Program-made: the position numbers and the translations under genes | From: Paracoccaceae bacterium | GTDB lineage: Bacteria > Pseudomonadota > Alphaproteobacteria > Rhodobacterales > Rhodobacteraceae | Assembly (NCBI GenBank): GCA_019090795.1 | Contig: JAHRVG010000026.1 | Span: 1 to 43,370, forward strand | DNA: 43,370 nt | Direction: 5' to 3' | In this document: positions 831 through 33,590 of the stretch, piece after piece | Position numbering within the stretch: position 1 is the first letter of the stretch | How the letters are laid out: each line of letters opens with the position of its first letter | The notes under the pieces: generated by a model | Seen by the model: only the letters and a program-made list of their open reading frames with translations | Told to the model about the DNA's origin: nothing | Databases searched by the model: none

Positions 831-876
831 ATAAAAAAACGACGGCGTCTGGGAGGAGACGCCGTCGTTTCTTTCT
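831..876. terminator. Intrinsic terminator between uvrD and DUF1127/cuckoo RNA (probably bidirectional)
   Basis: A 13-bp perfect stem (838-850 with 857-869) with a 6-base loop. On the minus strand it is followed by seven T, a classical Rho-independent terminator for the DUF1127/cuckoo transcript. On the plus strand it begins 9 bases after the uvrD stop and is followed by a weaker TTTCTTTCTC tract, so it probably also ends the uvrD transcript. Confidence 0.85.
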
Positions 877-902
877 CATTGTCGGGGGGAGGACCCGACA
901 AT
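838..902 (-). ncRNA. Cuckoo/CcsR-type sRNA, copy A (3' UTR of a DUF1127 gene)
   Basis: Read on the minus strand, two hairpins follow the stop of the DUF1127 gene at 918. Hairpin 1 pairs ATTGTCGGG (902-894) with CCCGACAAT (886-878) around the loop TCCTCCC. Hairpin 2 pairs AACGACGGCGTCT (869-857) with AGACGCCGTCGTT (850-838) around the loop CCTCCC and is followed by a run of seven T. Two stem-loops, each exposing a CCUCCC anti-Shine-Dalgarno motif, behind a DUF1127 ORF, is the described layout of the CcsR1-4 RNAs of Rhodobacter sphaeroides and the wider cuckoo RNA family, which are cut from the 3' end of the DUF1127 (ccaF1) mRNA and act in stress and C1/pyruvate metabolism control. The structure is seen; the processing and role are inferred from the family. 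Confidence 0.85.
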
Positions 903-917
903 CAGTAACTGTTGCGT

Positions 918-1133
918 TTACACGCCGTAAACTGCTTCGTGAGCCACGAATTTGATGCCGCCATGAGTCAGGCCCAGATCGGCCAATTCCAAACGGGACA
1001 GAGCGCTCAGTTCGGAAACTGTTTTGCGGTACATGTACTGTTTGACCATCCGGTCTGTGATTTCAGTGAAAATGCTAGCAACGACGTGTGCTGCTGTTGC
1101 GGTGATGCTGATGTTTGTTGTGGTGTTGGCCAT
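918..1133 (-). CDS. DUF1127 domain protein (CcaF1-like), host gene of cuckoo RNA A
   Basis: A 71-residue small protein ending in the arginine/leucine-rich DUF1127 pattern: RKTVSELSALSRLELADLGLTHGGIKFVAHEAVYG. The C-terminal half is the conserved domain; the N-terminal half is threonine/alanine rich. The start is preceded by AGAGGA. DUF1127 proteins of about 50-75 residues are stress-induced in Rhodobacter and Agrobacterium; one (CcaF1) has been described as an RNA-binding protein that affects CcsR sRNA levels. Two cuckoo-type hairpins follow the stop directly, so gene and RNA probably share a transcript. In this family transcription is usually driven by alternative heat-shock sigma factors; no promoter could be assigned here with confidence. 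Confidence 0.9.
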   Translation of the reverse strand: MANTTTNISITATAAHVVASIFTEITDRMVKQYMYRKTVSELSALSRLELADLGLTHGGIKFVAHEAVYGV

Positions 1134-1291
1134 TGCCCTAGTCCTCTAAGAGAGTGTTTGTTTTCTTGGGGTTTATCTAGGGGTTTAAAAAAATACTGCT
1201 AGAGCTGTTTACTCATTCCCGCCATGCGGCTTGTGCATGGCTTTGAATGTATAAACGGCGGTGCGTGTGGGCTGTGCTACCGTTTTGGTTT

Positions 1292-1337: not shown

Positions 1338-1553
1338 CTAGCGACCGTAAACGCATTCATGGGCAATCCGGTTGATGTCGCATCGGTTCAGGCCAAAATC
1401 TGCCAGCTCGCGCGTAGACATACGTTTCATTTCCGAGAGTGTTTTTCGGTAAAGGCGGTATTGTGCCAAGCGTAGCCAGAGAGCCTTGCTTACTGCAACG
1501 GTGGATTGCGTTGCAGAGGAGGAGATGATGGAGTTTGTGTGTATTACGGACAT
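1338..1553 (-). CDS. DUF1127 domain protein, second copy
   Basis: A 71-residue paralogue of the 918-1133 product with the domain at its C-terminus: YRKTLSEMKRMSTRELADFGLNRCDINRIAHECVYGR. The start is preceded by CAGGATCG. The N-terminal half is Ser/Thr/Val rich and could form a short amphipathic or membrane-touching helix, but this is not clear. It lies between cuckoo copy B (upstream) and a 14-bp hairpin (downstream). The two proteins share the RKT(V/L)SE...(L/T)RELAD(L/F)GL pattern and the HE-VYG end, so they are probably an old tandem duplication. Function is known only by family: small, basic, stress-linked. Confidence 0.9.
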   Translation of the reverse strand: MSVIHTNSIISSSATQSTVAVSKALWLRLAQYRLYRKTLSEMKRMSTRELADFGLNRCDINRIAHECVYGR

Positions 1554-1610
1554 GATTTGCGATCCTGTATAGGAATTATTGACGTGTTAGCCGTCTATTT
1601 AGGGCTGCTG

Positions 1611-1623: not shown

Positions 1624-1684
1624 GAGGTGTTCGCGCAACTGTGATATGCAGTTTTCACATGGCTTGCACTTGGGCTTGGAAAAT

Positions 1685-1761
1685 AAAAAGCGACGGCGCA
1701 GGGGAGGACGCACCGTCGCTTTGTCAGAGAGTGGTGGGCTCAGGGAGGAGAGGCCCACCGC
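1685..1761 (-). ncRNA. Cuckoo/CcsR-type sRNA, copy B (no host ORF in front)
   Basis: Same layout as copy A. On the minus strand hairpin 1 pairs 1761-1753 with 1739-1731 (core GGTGGGC/GCCCACC) around a 13-base loop holding CTCCTCCC. Hairpin 2 pairs 1720-1709 with 1700-1689 (12 bp including two G-T pairs, core AGCGACGG/CCGTCGCT) around the loop TCCTCCCC and is followed by TTTTATTT. Unlike copy A there is no DUF1127 ORF directly upstream: the next gene on that side is mrp on the other strand. It must therefore be made from its own promoter in 1765-2030, or have lost its host gene. It is followed about 130 bases later by the second DUF1127 gene, so it could instead be a 5' leader of that mRNA. 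Confidence 0.8.
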
Positions 1762-2035
1762 TCAATCTGGGCAGTGATTAAGCTTACACTTATTCGCTGC
1801 TGTTGATGGTCAATATACAGTTGCCGGTAAAAAACGACTACTGACAAAAAGGCAAATCTGCTATGCGTAAAATGCATGGCTAATCCCGTTCGTATCGACT
1901 CACCCGCTTAGGCTCGTGTGCTGCAAATCAGAACCTGCTGCTATTTGTCCTTTGCGTTATCTCTTGCTCTTTGCGCGCTAAACGCCAAATTAGGGGCAAG
2001 TAACGTAGACAACCAAATTCGTCAGGAATTCCAAC

Positions 2036-4942: not shown

Positions 4943-5155
4943 TTAGCGCCGCCAATGGGCTGGTGCATCCCATGCCGGACGGCGCGATTCACTCAGTGCG
5001 TCGCTGCGTTCTATGCCTAGGTCATGCAGGGCGGCGTCGTCCAGTTGTGCCAACTTGCGCCGCTGCCGACTCAAGCTCAAAAAATTTGCAACACGGGTGA
5101 GTAGGGATGCCCCTTTAGGAGCAATAGCGCGGGAGTGGGTGAGAATTTTTGTCAT
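4943..5155 (-). CDS. DUF1127 domain protein, third copy
   Basis: 70 residues from the ATG at 5155 (MTKILTHSRAIAPKGAS). An ATG five codons upstream exists, but AAGGAAG lies at the right distance for 5155 only. The domain reads FLSLSRQRRKLAQLDDAALHDLGIERSDALSESRRPAWDAPAHWRR; the Trp-containing end is the longer DUF1127 subtype typical of genes next to regulators, unlike the two short copies at 918-1553. It is divergent from a LysR gene across an AT-rich 124-base gap and may be its target. Confidence 0.88.
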   Translation of the reverse strand: MTKILTHSRAIAPKGASLLTRVANFLSLSRQRRKLAQLDDAALHDLGIERSDALSESRRPAWDAPAHWRR

Positions 5156-5195
5156 TTTGCTTCCTTTCATATATGGAATGCATTTTTGTTAATGC

Positions 5196-5210: not shown

Positions 5211-5279
5211 CCTTACTTGTCATATAGCTATACATAATAAAAATGAATGTTTGTTGTTTGTTACATCAAGGAAATTGAT

Positions 5280-6128
5280 ATGCCACGAAATCTTGACCTC
5301 ACCGCACTTCGTTCTTTTGTCGCGGTGGCTGAAACCGGTGGTGTGACCCGCGCCGCAGGGCAATTGCACCTAACCCAGTCAGCGGTGTCGATGCAACTCA
5401 AGCGGTTGGAAGAATCCTTGGGTCAAATTTTGCTGGACCGCTCGAACCGGAGCGTCACCCTGACGGGACAGGGGGAATTGTTGCTGAGTTACGGGCGCAG
5501 ACTATTGGCGCTGAACGACGAAGTCTGGAGTCGGATGACCAATCAGGTCTATGAGGGGGAGCTGGTGTTCGGTGTACCCCATGACATTGTTTATCCGCAT
5601 ATTCCCGGGGTGCTGAAAAAATTCGCAGCTGCTTACCCTCGGGTCAAAATCAATTTGGTGTCCTCTTTCACCGTCGATCTAAAGGCCCAGTTTGCCGCCG
5701 GAGAGGCGGATATCGTCCTGACGACGGAACAAACGACCCCGCCCGGGGCGACCAAACTGGCCGATCTGAATTTCATCTGGCTAGGCGCACCGGGTGGTGT
5801 GGCCTGGAAATCCCGCCCTTTGCGTCTGGCCTATGAAAAGAAGTGCATCTTTCGCCCGATAGCGCAAAAAGCGTTGGACGAGGCAGGAATTTCGTGGGAA
5901 ATGGCCGTCGATTCAGACTCGATGATGGCAGTAGAGGCGAGCCTGAGCGCGGATATTGCGGTCCATGCGCGGTTGCACGGCACTCAGCCACATCTTGAGG
6001 AAATACCCCACAATGGCGCATTGCCCGAACTGCCCGAATTCAAGGTGAATATGATGGTGGCTCCCAAAGCAAACGCGCCTTTGGCGAACCATTTGGCGGA
6101 AATTGTTCAAGCGGCGTATTGCTGCTAG
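5280..6128 (+). CDS. LysR-family transcriptional regulator
   Basis: 282 residues starting MPRNLDLTALRSFVAVAETGGVTRAAG; AAGGAAA lies before this ATG and the 11 codons upstream in frame are unlikely. Residues about 5-64 are the winged helix-turn-helix (TRAAGQLHLTQSAVSMQLKRLEESLG), the rest a periplasmic-binding-like effector domain. The effector cannot be told. It is divergent from the third DUF1127 gene with a palindrome between them, and its last four bases overlap the end of the convergent sulfotransferase-like gene, so there is no terminator gap. Confidence 0.92.
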   Translation: MPRNLDLTALRSFVAVAETGGVTRAAGQLHLTQSAVSMQLKRLEESLGQILLDRSNRSVTLTGQGELLLSYGRRLLALNDEVWSRMTNQVYEGELVFGVPHDIVYPHIPGVLKKFAAAYPRVKINLVSSFTVDLKAQFAAGEADIVLTTEQTTPPGATKLADLNFIWLGAPGGVAWKSRPLRLAYEKKCIFRPIAQKALDEAGISWEMAVDSDSMMAVEASLSADIAVHARLHGTQPHLEEIPHNGALPELPEFKVNMMVAPKANAPLANHLAEIVQAAYCC

Positions 6129-31119: not shown

Positions 31120-33590
31120 GCAAGGCTTTCCCAACCCAAGCGCAGATCGTCATAATAGGTGGCGGTGTTATCGGCACCTCGATTGCCTACCACTTGTGTC
31201 GCGCGGGGGTGCGCGATGTGCTGTTGCTGGAGAAATCGCAGCTCACAGAGGGGGCGACTTGGCATGCGGCCGGTTTGGTAGGGCAATTTCGAAGCCAGCA
31301 AAACCTGATGCAATTGATGAGCGATTCCGTGGCGCTGTTTGATGAACTGGAGGCTGATACCGGCCAAAACCCCAGCTGGTGCAAGGTTGGTTCGATGCGG
31401 ATTGCATCAAGCAAAGATCGCTGGGACGAGCTGCTGAAATCCCATTCTGCGGCGCAGGCGGTGGGGTTCGAGATGCAGATGTTGACGCCGAGTGAAGCAT
31501 TGGCGCTATACCCGCTAATGGCCGTAGATGATCTGGTCGGGGCGGCCTTTATTCCTGCTGACGGGCATATTGATCCCAACTCCCTGACCCAAGCCTATGC
31601 GCGTGGCATTCGTAAATACGGGGGGAGAATTATCGAGGGTGTGAAGGTTAAGGCATTGACCCATAATAGCAAAAAGATAACACATGTGGTGACGGATCAG
31701 GGCGCGATTGCGGTGGATACCGTTGTGAACGCCGGGGGGCTTTGGGCGCGACAGGTGGGCTGGATGGCTGGGGTTGAAATTCCGGCAGGTGTAGTTGAAC
31801 ATCAGTATCTTGTTACCGAGAAAACAGACGAGATCCCCCCAAACCTGCCTGCTTTGCGTGATCCGGACGGCGGCTATTACGCCAAACCCGAACCCGGTGC
31901 ACTGGCGATTGGCGGCTGGGAAAAGGTGACGCGCAAGGTCAACCCGGTTGAGGGGTTCCCCTGGCAAAATGCGCGACACTTGTTTGACGGTGACATGGAT
32001 CGCCTGACCGAATTTCTGGAACCGGCCATGGCCCGCCTGCCAATTCTGGAGCACCTCGGCATCCGGACCATTGTCAACGGCCCGATCCCGATTTCCCCAG
32101 ATGGCGAACCGATTATGGGGCCGGTACCGGGGCTGGATAATTTCTTTGCCGCTTGCGCCTTTACCTCCGGCATTGCCGCATCAGGCGGGGCGGGAAAGGC
32201 GGCAGCGAACTGGATTATGCACGGCGATGCGGGGCTGGATTTATGGACTTTTGATATCCGCCGTTTTGGCCCGCTGCACGCTGGTGCGGATTTTCTGCAC
32301 GACCGTGCGGTGGAATCCTATGCCAAATACTATGACATTCATTGGCCCGGTGAAGAAATGGAGTCAGCGCGCGCGGTGCGGCGTAGCCCACTCTATCAAA
32401 CGCTGAAAGATCAGGGTGCCGTGTTTGGTTCGAAATTTGGCTGGGAGCGGGCCAACTGGTTCGCCCATGGTGATATTTTGCAGCACGATCTATTTGGATT
32501 TGACCGACCCGGACAGGCCGAAACAACCGGACTGGAACATAAGGCCGTACGAGAGGGGGTTGCCCTGATCGACATGTCTTCGTTCACGAAATGCGAAATC
32601 AGTGGCAAAGATGCCTGCTCATTCCTGCAGTATCTTGCCGTTGCCAATATCGATAAGCCGGTGGGAGGCGCGACCTATACCCAGTTGTGCAACGCAGAGG
32701 GCGGGATCGAGGCCGATGTCACCATCATCCGGCGTTCTGAAACCTGTTTTTGGCTGGTCACCGGATCAGCTCTTGGCATTCGCGATCGCGACTGGATTAA
32801 CCGCAATCTGGCGAATTTCAGGAGCACCACAAACCTGAAACCCATGGGCGAGCAATGGATTGGCGGTGCGCCCGATGTGCAGTTGCGCGATATCACATCC
32901 GGTTACGGTGTAATCAACCTGACCGGCCCCTTGGCGCGCAGGGTGCTGGAAAAACTAACGGCGACGGATGTCAGCCATGCGGGTTTCGCCTTTATGAGCG
33001 CGCAGGACATTCGCATCGGCTATGCCCCTGCGCTGGCCTTTCGTGTGACTTATGTGGGCGAACTGGGCTGGGAGTTGTACATTCCCACCGAATACTTGGC
33101 CTATGCCTTTGAGCTGTTGCAAGAGGCGGGGCAGGAATTTGGCATCGCCAACGTGGGTTATCGCGCCATAGACAGCCTGAGGCTGGAGAAACGCTATTTG
33201 GCGTGGGGCGTTGATATCACACCTGATTACAACCCGATCGAGGCGGGGCTTGGCTTTGTTATCGACTGGAACAAGGGTGATTTTCTGGGCCGTGCCGCGC
33301 TGGCGGAAGCCAAGGCACAGGGGGTGCGCCGGAAACTTGTGTGCCTTGCCCTCGAAGAGCCACTGCCGGTGTTTGGCGGCGAGGCAATTCTGTGCAATGG
33401 GCAGGCAGTCGGCCAGACTACTAGCGGGAATTTCGGCTATACGGTCGGAAAATCTCTGGTGCTGGGCTACTTGCCGGTCGAGGCAATCAGGCAGGGCGGA
33501 TTTGAGGTGAACGCTTTTGGCACCTGTAGTCGTGCCAGTTTGGTTAAATCATCCGCTTACGACCCGGCGCGCAGAAAAATACTATGCTGA
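31116..33590 (+). CDS. Dimethylglycine/sarcosine dehydrogenase-like flavoprotein (DAO + GcvT)
   Basis: 824 residues. GGGVIG at 15-20 binds FAD; His50 in TWHAAGL is the residue that carries covalently bound FAD in DMGDH and sarcosine dehydrogenase. A DAO fold runs to about 380, then a short linking FAO_M domain (residues about 385-440) and an aminomethyltransferase GcvT domain to the end, which binds tetrahydrofolate. The enzyme oxidatively demethylates an N-methyl glycine-type amine and passes the C1 unit to THF. Together with the MttB-like gene it makes a methylated-amine module. Exact substrate cannot be told from sequence. The first bases overlap the methyltransferase stop. Confidence 0.92.
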   Translation: MSKAFPTQAQIVIIGGGVIGTSIAYHLCRAGVRDVLLLEKSQLTEGATWHAAGLVGQFRSQQNLMQLMSDSVALFDELEADTGQNPSWCKVGSMRIASSKDRWDELLKSHSAAQAVGFEMQMLTPSEALALYPLMAVDDLVGAAFIPADGHIDPNSLTQAYARGIRKYGGRIIEGVKVKALTHNSKKITHVVTDQGAIAVDTVVNAGGLWARQVGWMAGVEIPAGVVEHQYLVTEKTDEIPPNLPALRDPDGGYYAKPEPGALAIGGWEKVTRKVNPVEGFPWQNARHLFDGDMDRLTEFLEPAMARLPILEHLGIRTIVNGPIPISPDGEPIMGPVPGLDNFFAACAFTSGIAASGGAGKAAANWIMHGDAGLDLWTFDIRRFGPLHAGADFLHDRAVESYAKYYDIHWPGEEMESARAVRRSPLYQTLKDQGAVFGSKFGWERANWFAHGDILQHDLFGFDRPGQAETTGLEHKAVREGVALIDMSSFTKCEISGKDACSFLQYLAVANIDKPVGGATYTQLCNAEGGIEADVTIIRRSETCFWLVTGSALGIRDRDWINRNLANFRSTTNLKPMGEQWIGGAPDVQLRDITSGYGVINLTGPLARRVLEKLTATDVSHAGFAFMSAQDIRIGYAPALAFRVTYVGELGWELYIPTEYLAYAFELLQEAGQEFGIANVGYRAIDSLRLEKRYLAWGVDITPDYNPIEAGLGFVIDWNKGDFLGRAALAEAKAQGVRRKLVCLALEEPLPVFGGEAILCNGQAVGQTTSGNFGYTVGKSLVLGYLPVEAIRQGGFEVNAFGTCSRASLVKSSAYDPARRKILC

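Follow-up and report, generated by a model that had tools for sequence, protein, structure and literature searches.

Two DUF1127 genes and two modules of hairpins with CCUCCC loops lie near one end of the window, the 43,370-nt stretch of DNA from a Paracoccaceae bacterium that was analysed here. Along the minus strand the order is cuckoo B, DUF1127-2, DUF1127-1 and cuckoo A, and the group is flanked by mrp and uvrD. The names of the modules reflect the family placement proposed below. The features are as follows.

833-874, minus strand: module A hairpin 2, 17-18 bp, loop CCUCCC, 3' end formed by T7
834-909, minus strand: putative cuckoo module A, in the 3'-UTR of DUF1127-1, two hairpins with (U)CCUCCC loops
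878-902, minus strand: module A hairpin 1, 9 bp, loop UCCUCCC
918-1133, minus strand: DUF1127-1, 71 aa, Pfam PF06568 at 23.1 bits (cutoff 23.3)
1338-1553, minus strand: DUF1127-2, 71 aa, Pfam PF06568 at 36.4 bits (cutoff 23.3)
1683-1805, minus strand: putative cuckoo module B, a predicted free-standing sRNA of ~123 nt with three hairpins
1687-1722, minus strand: module B terminator hairpin, loop UCCUCCC, with a T run, listed by the terminator scan
1733-1759, minus strand: module B motif hairpin, loop UCCUCCC

In a six-frame search of the genome, DUF1127-1 scored 23.6 bits, above the PF06568 cutoff of 23.3. Right behind the DUF1127-2 stop, at ~1290-1331 on the minus strand, there is a strong hairpin that has neither a CCUCCC loop nor a T run. 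A third DUF1127 gene (4943-5170, minus strand) adjoins a divergent LysR gene (5247-6128, plus strand).

The hairpin modules and their family

Module A lies directly 3' of the DUF1127-1 stop on the same strand. The preliminary description had reported two hairpins after this stop, both with CCTCCC in the loop and the second ending in a T run, and these are indeed present on the minus strand. For the 76 nt of the module, the folding energy is -43.1 kcal/mol (z -9.0); 200 shuffles averaged -17.0 and none equalled it. The 3.63-Mb genome holds three copies of the paired motif TCCTCCC-N25..55-TCCTCCC and none of its reversed control; two of the three are module A and its twin, module B, 850 bp away. 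A hairpin finder gave five CCTCCC hairpins in the window, four of them in modules A and B and one, of 8 bp, at 32653-32678, and for the reversed motif CCCTCC it gave none in the window.

Module B is upstream of DUF1127-2 on the minus strand. Its 5' hairpin does not carry the motif, UCCUCCC being found in two of the three hairpins, and these two form a part (1684-1762) that is built like module A. The fold has a z of -7.9 against shuffles. That module B acts as an attenuator of DUF1127-2 was considered, as attenuation by a uORF has been reported for a DUF1127 gene of S. meliloti (PMC12218461); this role is less likely because the box of DUF1127-2 (see below) sits behind the module B terminator.

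Are the stems maintained in evolution? For the module B terminator stem, 11 pairs are predicted, and seven of the 11 show double changes in a 17-sequence alignment whose regions were set by coordinates or box positions (four of 21 regions were omitted). For module B on four close sequences, 97.6% of the cells are paired, a level reached by one of 500 shuffles. On four close sequences, covariation in module A does not exceed that of shuffles, 134 of 500 doing as well, and hairpin 1 of this module is missing from two close relatives. In an earlier survey of relatives the stems were picked by the hairpin finder, and pairing there is therefore no proof.

A search with DUF1127-1 over 61 genomes gave a match in 30, the own genome and 29 others, including 27 of the 32 other members of the genus; the 29 related loci are these 27 and two of other genera. 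No direct match to DUF1127-1 was found in plasmid records. Of the 29 related loci, 20 have hairpins with CCTCCC loops on the upstream side of DUF1127 and 14 have them on the downstream side. In many of the relatives' stretches mrp and uvrD are again the neighbours, similar orders of genes and modules recur as well, and two DUF1127 genes between hairpin modules are found in the same form in three relatives (L044, L045 and L046). Among 29 loci taken from other genera of the family, 15 have hairpin arrays after DUF1127; all are downstream, and the upstream module therefore appears to be a trait of the window's genus. The paired motif is present in 94 of 100 sampled genomes of the family, own included; its reversed control also gives matches in some of them. 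In this family, cuckoo RNAs and DUF1127 proteins are found together.

The hairpins might be nothing but intrinsic terminators, with module A serving both DUF1127-1 and uvrD and with CCUCCC loops that have no regulatory role. The 3' hairpin of module B, on the minus strand, and module A are both listed as terminator-like, and on the minus strand each has a T run; module A, however, is listed on the plus strand only, behind uvrD, its minus-strand T run having been read from the sequence, in a scan that found three terminators against 1.5 expected. This explanation is highly improbable, as the loop motif is kept while stems change, and the same loop is found on hairpins that are not terminators. 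In 21 loci there are 62 CCTCCC hairpins inside the locus and none outside it on the sense strand, whereas permuted motifs give five to 14 each inside. Arrays of many hairpin units, which occur in other genera, also argue against a mere terminator function.

To which RNA family do the modules belong? Nothing in the window reaches the Rfam gathering level. The preliminary description had proposed a DUF1127 gene with a cuckoo/CcsR RNA behind it and an Rfam covariance search as a check. The proposed layout is supported: CcsR1 (RF02791) is the best Rfam family in a 1.2-kb search (E 5e-6) and the top family for module A in a permissive search of short stretches. As a formal assignment to that family the check falls short, with 33.2 bits where gathering requires 65.3. 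Of the two results that the preliminary description had named as jointly refuting it, a missing covariance-model hit and a missing 3'-UTR RNA, the first was thus obtained at gathering level. For module B, alpha-r14 (ar14, RF02344) ranks first at 34.0 bits (gathering 58.8), and CcsR1 gives 21.8 bits; module B is not an alpha-r14 member by this score, nor by the motif, which it has in two hairpins instead of the required three. The full CCUCCUCCC loop motif of CcsR is absent from the loops of the window, which hold the shorter (U)CCUCCC; the full 9-mer is present in some relatives. A model, R1, was built on module B and three relatives; it recovers module A (E 3.5e-9) as well as cuckoo loci in other genera. 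Cuckoo RNAs have been described as two to four hairpins with a conserved loop motif and helices that are not conserved (PMC4504443), and the modules have two to four hairpins, a conserved loop motif and unconserved stems. Because the Rfam scores are below gathering, model R1 matches and the hairpins have this build, we place the modules of the window with the cuckoo RNAs in the broad sense, as judged from their sequences, and outside the Rfam families CcsR1 and ar14. A short DUF1127 gene beside CcsR-like hairpin sRNAs is also what defines a CIN1 locus (PMC10253847), and this is found here. Among CcsR1 matches in the own genome, four are listed, one of them on contig C2 at E 0.87; a match on contig C33 has no paired CCUCCC loops, resembles coding sequence by eye and was rejected.

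A LysR-type box before the three units

The preliminary description, while right about module A, overlooked the second module, the second DUF1127 gene and a set of promoter-proximal boxes of LsrB type. When the sequences preceding cuckoo B and DUF1127 in the window and 20 relatives were aligned, two conserved copies of one box emerged, ATGC-N7-GCAT-A-nCGG-nnn-TGC. It precedes cuckoo B and both DUF1127-1 and DUF1127-2. The boxes and the -10-like hexamers are the following.

1852-1877, minus strand: box before cuckoo B, core TGCA-N6-GCAT, one mismatch to the genus consensus
1812-1817, minus strand: -10-like TATATT of cuckoo B, predicted start ~1805
1635-1660, minus strand: box before DUF1127-2, weakest box of all, with three mismatches to the genus consensus
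1596-1601, minus strand: -10-like TAAATA of DUF1127-2, predicted start ~1589
1213-1238, minus strand: box before DUF1127-1, two mismatches to the genus consensus
1174-1179, minus strand: -10-like TAGATA of DUF1127-1, predicted start ~1167

With up to two mismatches and within 700 nt upstream of DUF1127, the box is found in all 29 related loci; 20 of these were used to derive the consensus, and the remaining nine also have it without exception. Stray boxes in the same 89.7 kb number one on the sense strand and three on the other, the expectation from simple shuffles being 0.001 per kb. In other genera, 13 of the 15 loci that hold both DUF1127 and hairpins have the box. At one mismatch or fewer, matches occur in all 33 genomes of the genus and in 79 of 100 genomes of the family; in 11 of 29 compared genomes a cuckoo pair has such a box on its own strand, no more than 1 kb upstream, and this is the sole arrangement seen within that distance. 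A scan of the window at three mismatches gave nine matches, not above the 6.5 expected by chance, and a looser box at two mismatches gave 39 matches in the own genome against 10 in the reversed control. The argument for the box is one of position and conservation.

In another genus, a box lies straight before a cuckoo pair at two sites (G039:C16:6324-6374, in stretch L029, and G039:C17:202-341); the L029 stretch gave no DUF1127 match. The third DUF1127 gene of the window (4943-5170) has no acceptable LsrB box. Degenerate, overlapping ATGC/GCAT half-sites are present at ~2068-2115 of stretch L118 (G000:C37), ~80-120 nt before another DUF1127 start.

For the S. meliloti cuckoo sRNA NfeR1, gel shifts and mutants were reported to show an LsrB site, TGCA-N6-GCAT, at -72 to -57 (PMC10746234), and VtlR was reported to activate three DUF1127 genes and AbcR2 (PMC12595884). 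All three boxes of the window have T-N11-A and two have TGCA-N6-GCAT, the exception being the box before DUF1127-2; the motifs lie near -72 to -57 when positions are counted from the predicted starts. The VtlR box GCAT-N3-TG-N3-T is not matched, as the boxes of the window read GCAT-N3, then AG, AC or GG, then N3-T. At the level of sequence, the box matches the LsrB site of NfeR1 and fits the VtlR regulon of Brucella.

The distance from box to promoter also recurs. In 17 of 21 cuckoo-B promoters, 59-61 nt separate the start of the box from that of the best -10-like hexamer, and in 20 of 34 DUF1127 promoters the distance is 58-60 nt; this spacing puts the dyad near -65. Before the sRNA that lies behind lsrB (next section), a spacing of 58-61 is found in only six of 27 cases, the commonest value being 71 (eight of 27). 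No sigma-70-like promoter is listed in 780-2060, where 1.2 would be expected.

Could heat-shock sigma factors account for these units? The ccaF1-CcsR operon of R. sphaeroides was reported to have an RpoHI/RpoHII promoter (PMC10253847), and the DUF1127 units might be driven mainly by RpoHI/RpoHII in the same way, the box being secondary or that of another factor. The promoters of DUF1127-2 and DUF1127-1 each have an RpoH-like match with three mismatches in 13 positions, equalled by 25 and 31 of 1000 shuffles, respectively; the consensus scored was that of S. meliloti RpoH1 (PMC8844928), not that of R. sphaeroides RpoHI/RpoHII. At up to four mismatches, 13 of 21 cuckoo-B promoters have such a match (24% of shuffles do), as do 14 of 34 DUF1127 promoters (21% of shuffles). 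We nevertheless regard a mainly RpoH-driven locus as unlikely. The cuckoo B promoter has no RpoH-like match (six mismatches in 13, with 997 of 1000 shuffles as good), and matches with up to three mismatches are few (8 of 21 cuckoo-B, 4 of 34 DUF1127 and 3 of 27 lsrB-sRNA promoters), whereas the box is found in 29 of 29 loci. As the sole explanation RpoH fails at cuckoo B; it is retained as a rival by way of both DUF1127 promoters. Joint use of LsrB and RpoH is conceivable, because RpoH-like matches are present at both of these promoters.

The LsrB ortholog and the sRNA behind it

The genome encodes 22 LysR proteins, and one of these, at L116:4121-5017 on the minus strand, is an LsrB/VtlR ortholog. 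Its best PDB match is 9HH1 (E 3.9e-77), identified as A. tumefaciens LsrB (PMC11975290); the next chain follows at 2.4e-27, and the closest paralog in the own genome has 29% identity. At E 1e-50, LsrB orthologs are found in 29 of 33 genomes of the genus, in four of four others of the family and in 10 of 24 of other families, and orthologs with 68-69% identity are present in Paracoccus, Octadecabacter and Pseudorhodobacter records. LsrB has been called unique to the Rhizobiales (PMC11975290) and also conserved in Alphaproteobacteria (PMC7486931). The distribution of the orthologs agrees with the latter, and the ortholog here speaks against LsrB being restricted to the Rhizobiales.

The own ortholog contains no cysteine, and hence no C144/C273 pair; therefore the redox switch of A. 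tumefaciens cannot operate alike here. Of 30 LsrB homologs compared (29 of the genus, own included, and one of another genus; L088, L119-L148), 29 have no cysteine in the aligned part. The gene is on a different contig from trxB and has other neighbours. What, then, does a cysteine-free LsrB sense?

A further small RNA is found behind this gene.

L116:3897-3997, minus strand: SorX/SorY/suhB-like sRNA containing ACCUCCC, behind the lsrB ortholog and with an LsrB-type box before it

This sRNA is near SorX, SorY and suhB in Rfam, with 45.9 bits for SorX (gathering 46.6). The box is present behind lsrB in 25 of 30 loci; two more have it with three mismatches, two are cut by contig ends and one lacks it. 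In the 16 aligned loci shown, the box and then the sRNA follow lsrB. The search of plasmid records found 31, and the four examined, from named Rhodobacterales (Paracoccus, Octadecabacter and Pseudorhodobacter; L237-L240), all have the box behind lsrB; the SorX gathering score is passed in the three that were searched with Rfam (L237-L239).

The box may be a genuine LysR-type site that is bound by one of the other 21 LysR proteins instead of the LsrB ortholog. LysR proteins in general recognise T-N11-A, LsrB has lost here both the cysteines and the trxB neighbour that it has in Rhizobiales, and the ortholog was not found in four of 33 genus genomes that still have boxes (these are incomplete or fragmented, 65-93% complete). 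Against this, the same box lies directly behind lsrB in the loci and records described above, the place that abcR1 takes in Rhizobiales. The LysR protein of the window (5247-6128), the one among the other 21 that was compared with PDB, is LrhA-like and not LsrB, and was rejected as the regulator. Control by another LysR protein is thus quite unlikely, and the LsrB ortholog is the preferred candidate.

Proposed regulation, candidate targets and known systems

The best reading of these sequences is an LsrB-controlled cuckoo/DUF1127 regulon outside the Rhizobiales. We think it likely that the window holds a variant CIN1 locus in which three box-bearing units stand under the LsrB/VtlR ortholog and the hairpin loops lower the translation of several messages; transcription of the locus, binding of LsrB, processing and targets are what we infer. 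The minus strand would carry cuckoo B alone, DUF1127-2, and DUF1127-1 together with cuckoo A. Cuckoo B would have its own promoter and terminator and give an RNA of ~123 nt, and DUF1127-2 would have its own promoter. Cuckoo A may be released from the DUF1127-1 3' UTR by RNase E, perhaps with the aid of DUF1127 protein, in line with what was reported for R. sphaeroides. At all three promoters the common LysR-type box, ~60 nt before the -10, would be bound and activated, most likely by the LsrB/VtlR ortholog. The loops could then pair with GGGAGGA-like ribosome-binding sites, and translation of several messages would be lowered together. Two such sRNA modules can probably block many ribosome-binding sites.

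Which messages might be affected? GGGAGGA-N4..9-ATG occurs 43 times in the genome and seven times in the reversed control. Thirty of the 43 sites were examined (L207-L236); 27 have an open reading frame of at least 40 aa, and 26 of these were searched for families. Nine of the 27 encode uptake-type transport proteins: five DctP, one DctQ, one NMT1-like, one family-5 binding protein and one urea-binding-like protein, the last below its family cutoff. SoxX and SoxA are candidate targets above cutoffs, and a PQQ-dependent dehydrogenase of methanol/ethanol type is another; a formate-dehydrogenase-region protein and a sulfide-quinone-reductase-like protein are below cutoffs. Other candidates are a [2Fe-2S] protein, an AcrB-type transporter, an IclR regulator, FtsA, IHF-beta, acyl-CoA enzymes and a response regulator, and two gave no family match. 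Taken from sequence, the candidates would fit an involvement in TRAP uptake, C1 and sulfur oxidation. These classes fit the C1 and transporter roles reported for CcsR and NfeR1, in a comparison made without a matched control, and highly expressed genes, with their strong Shine-Dalgarno sites, would yield the same classes.

How does the locus compare with known systems? As in R. sphaeroides CIN1, where ccaF1 is followed by CcsR1-4, a short DUF1127 gene precedes hairpin sRNAs with CCUCC loop motifs (PMC10253847). Unlike that locus, the window has two DUF1127 genes, a single two-hairpin module downstream and an extra module upstream; the motif is the shorter one, conserved LysR-type boxes are present, and RpoH-like matches are confined to the DUF1127 promoters. 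Cuckoo B resembles S. meliloti NfeR1 (alpha-r14) in its predicted length of ~123 nt, its three predicted hairpins, the CCUCCC loops and a TGCA-N6-GCAT box at ~-71 (PMC10746234), and it differs in having the motif in two of three hairpins, in its ar14 score and in its link to DUF1127. The VtlR/LsrB regulon of Brucella and Agrobacterium shares the order of a LysR gene followed by a box and an anti-Shine-Dalgarno sRNA, as well as boxes at DUF1127 genes. In the window's genome, unlike that regulon, there are cuckoo sRNAs in addition, a SorX/SorY-like sRNA lies behind lsrB, LsrB has neither the trxB neighbour nor the cysteines, and the host is Rhodobacterales-like, as judged from the relatives of its LsrB and of its SorX/SorY-like sRNA.

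In the open-licence PMC literature, no report was found of a common LysR/LsrB-type regulator of cuckoo/DUF1127 outside the Rhizobiales. The parts are known elsewhere; their arrangement and shared control appear new. With an LsrB-type box before the units in nearly every locus examined, the link to the regulator is directly testable. On balance we lean, by a little, to the notion that CcsR/DUF1127 of Rhodobacter, LsrB-NfeR1 of Sinorhizobium and VtlR-DUF1127-AbcR of Brucella and Agrobacterium are what is left of a single ancestral LsrB regulon, made up of anti-Shine-Dalgarno RNAs and DUF1127 proteins, which would still be intact in Rhodobacterales-like bacteria, each unit with its own LsrB box and LsrB itself without the redox cysteines.
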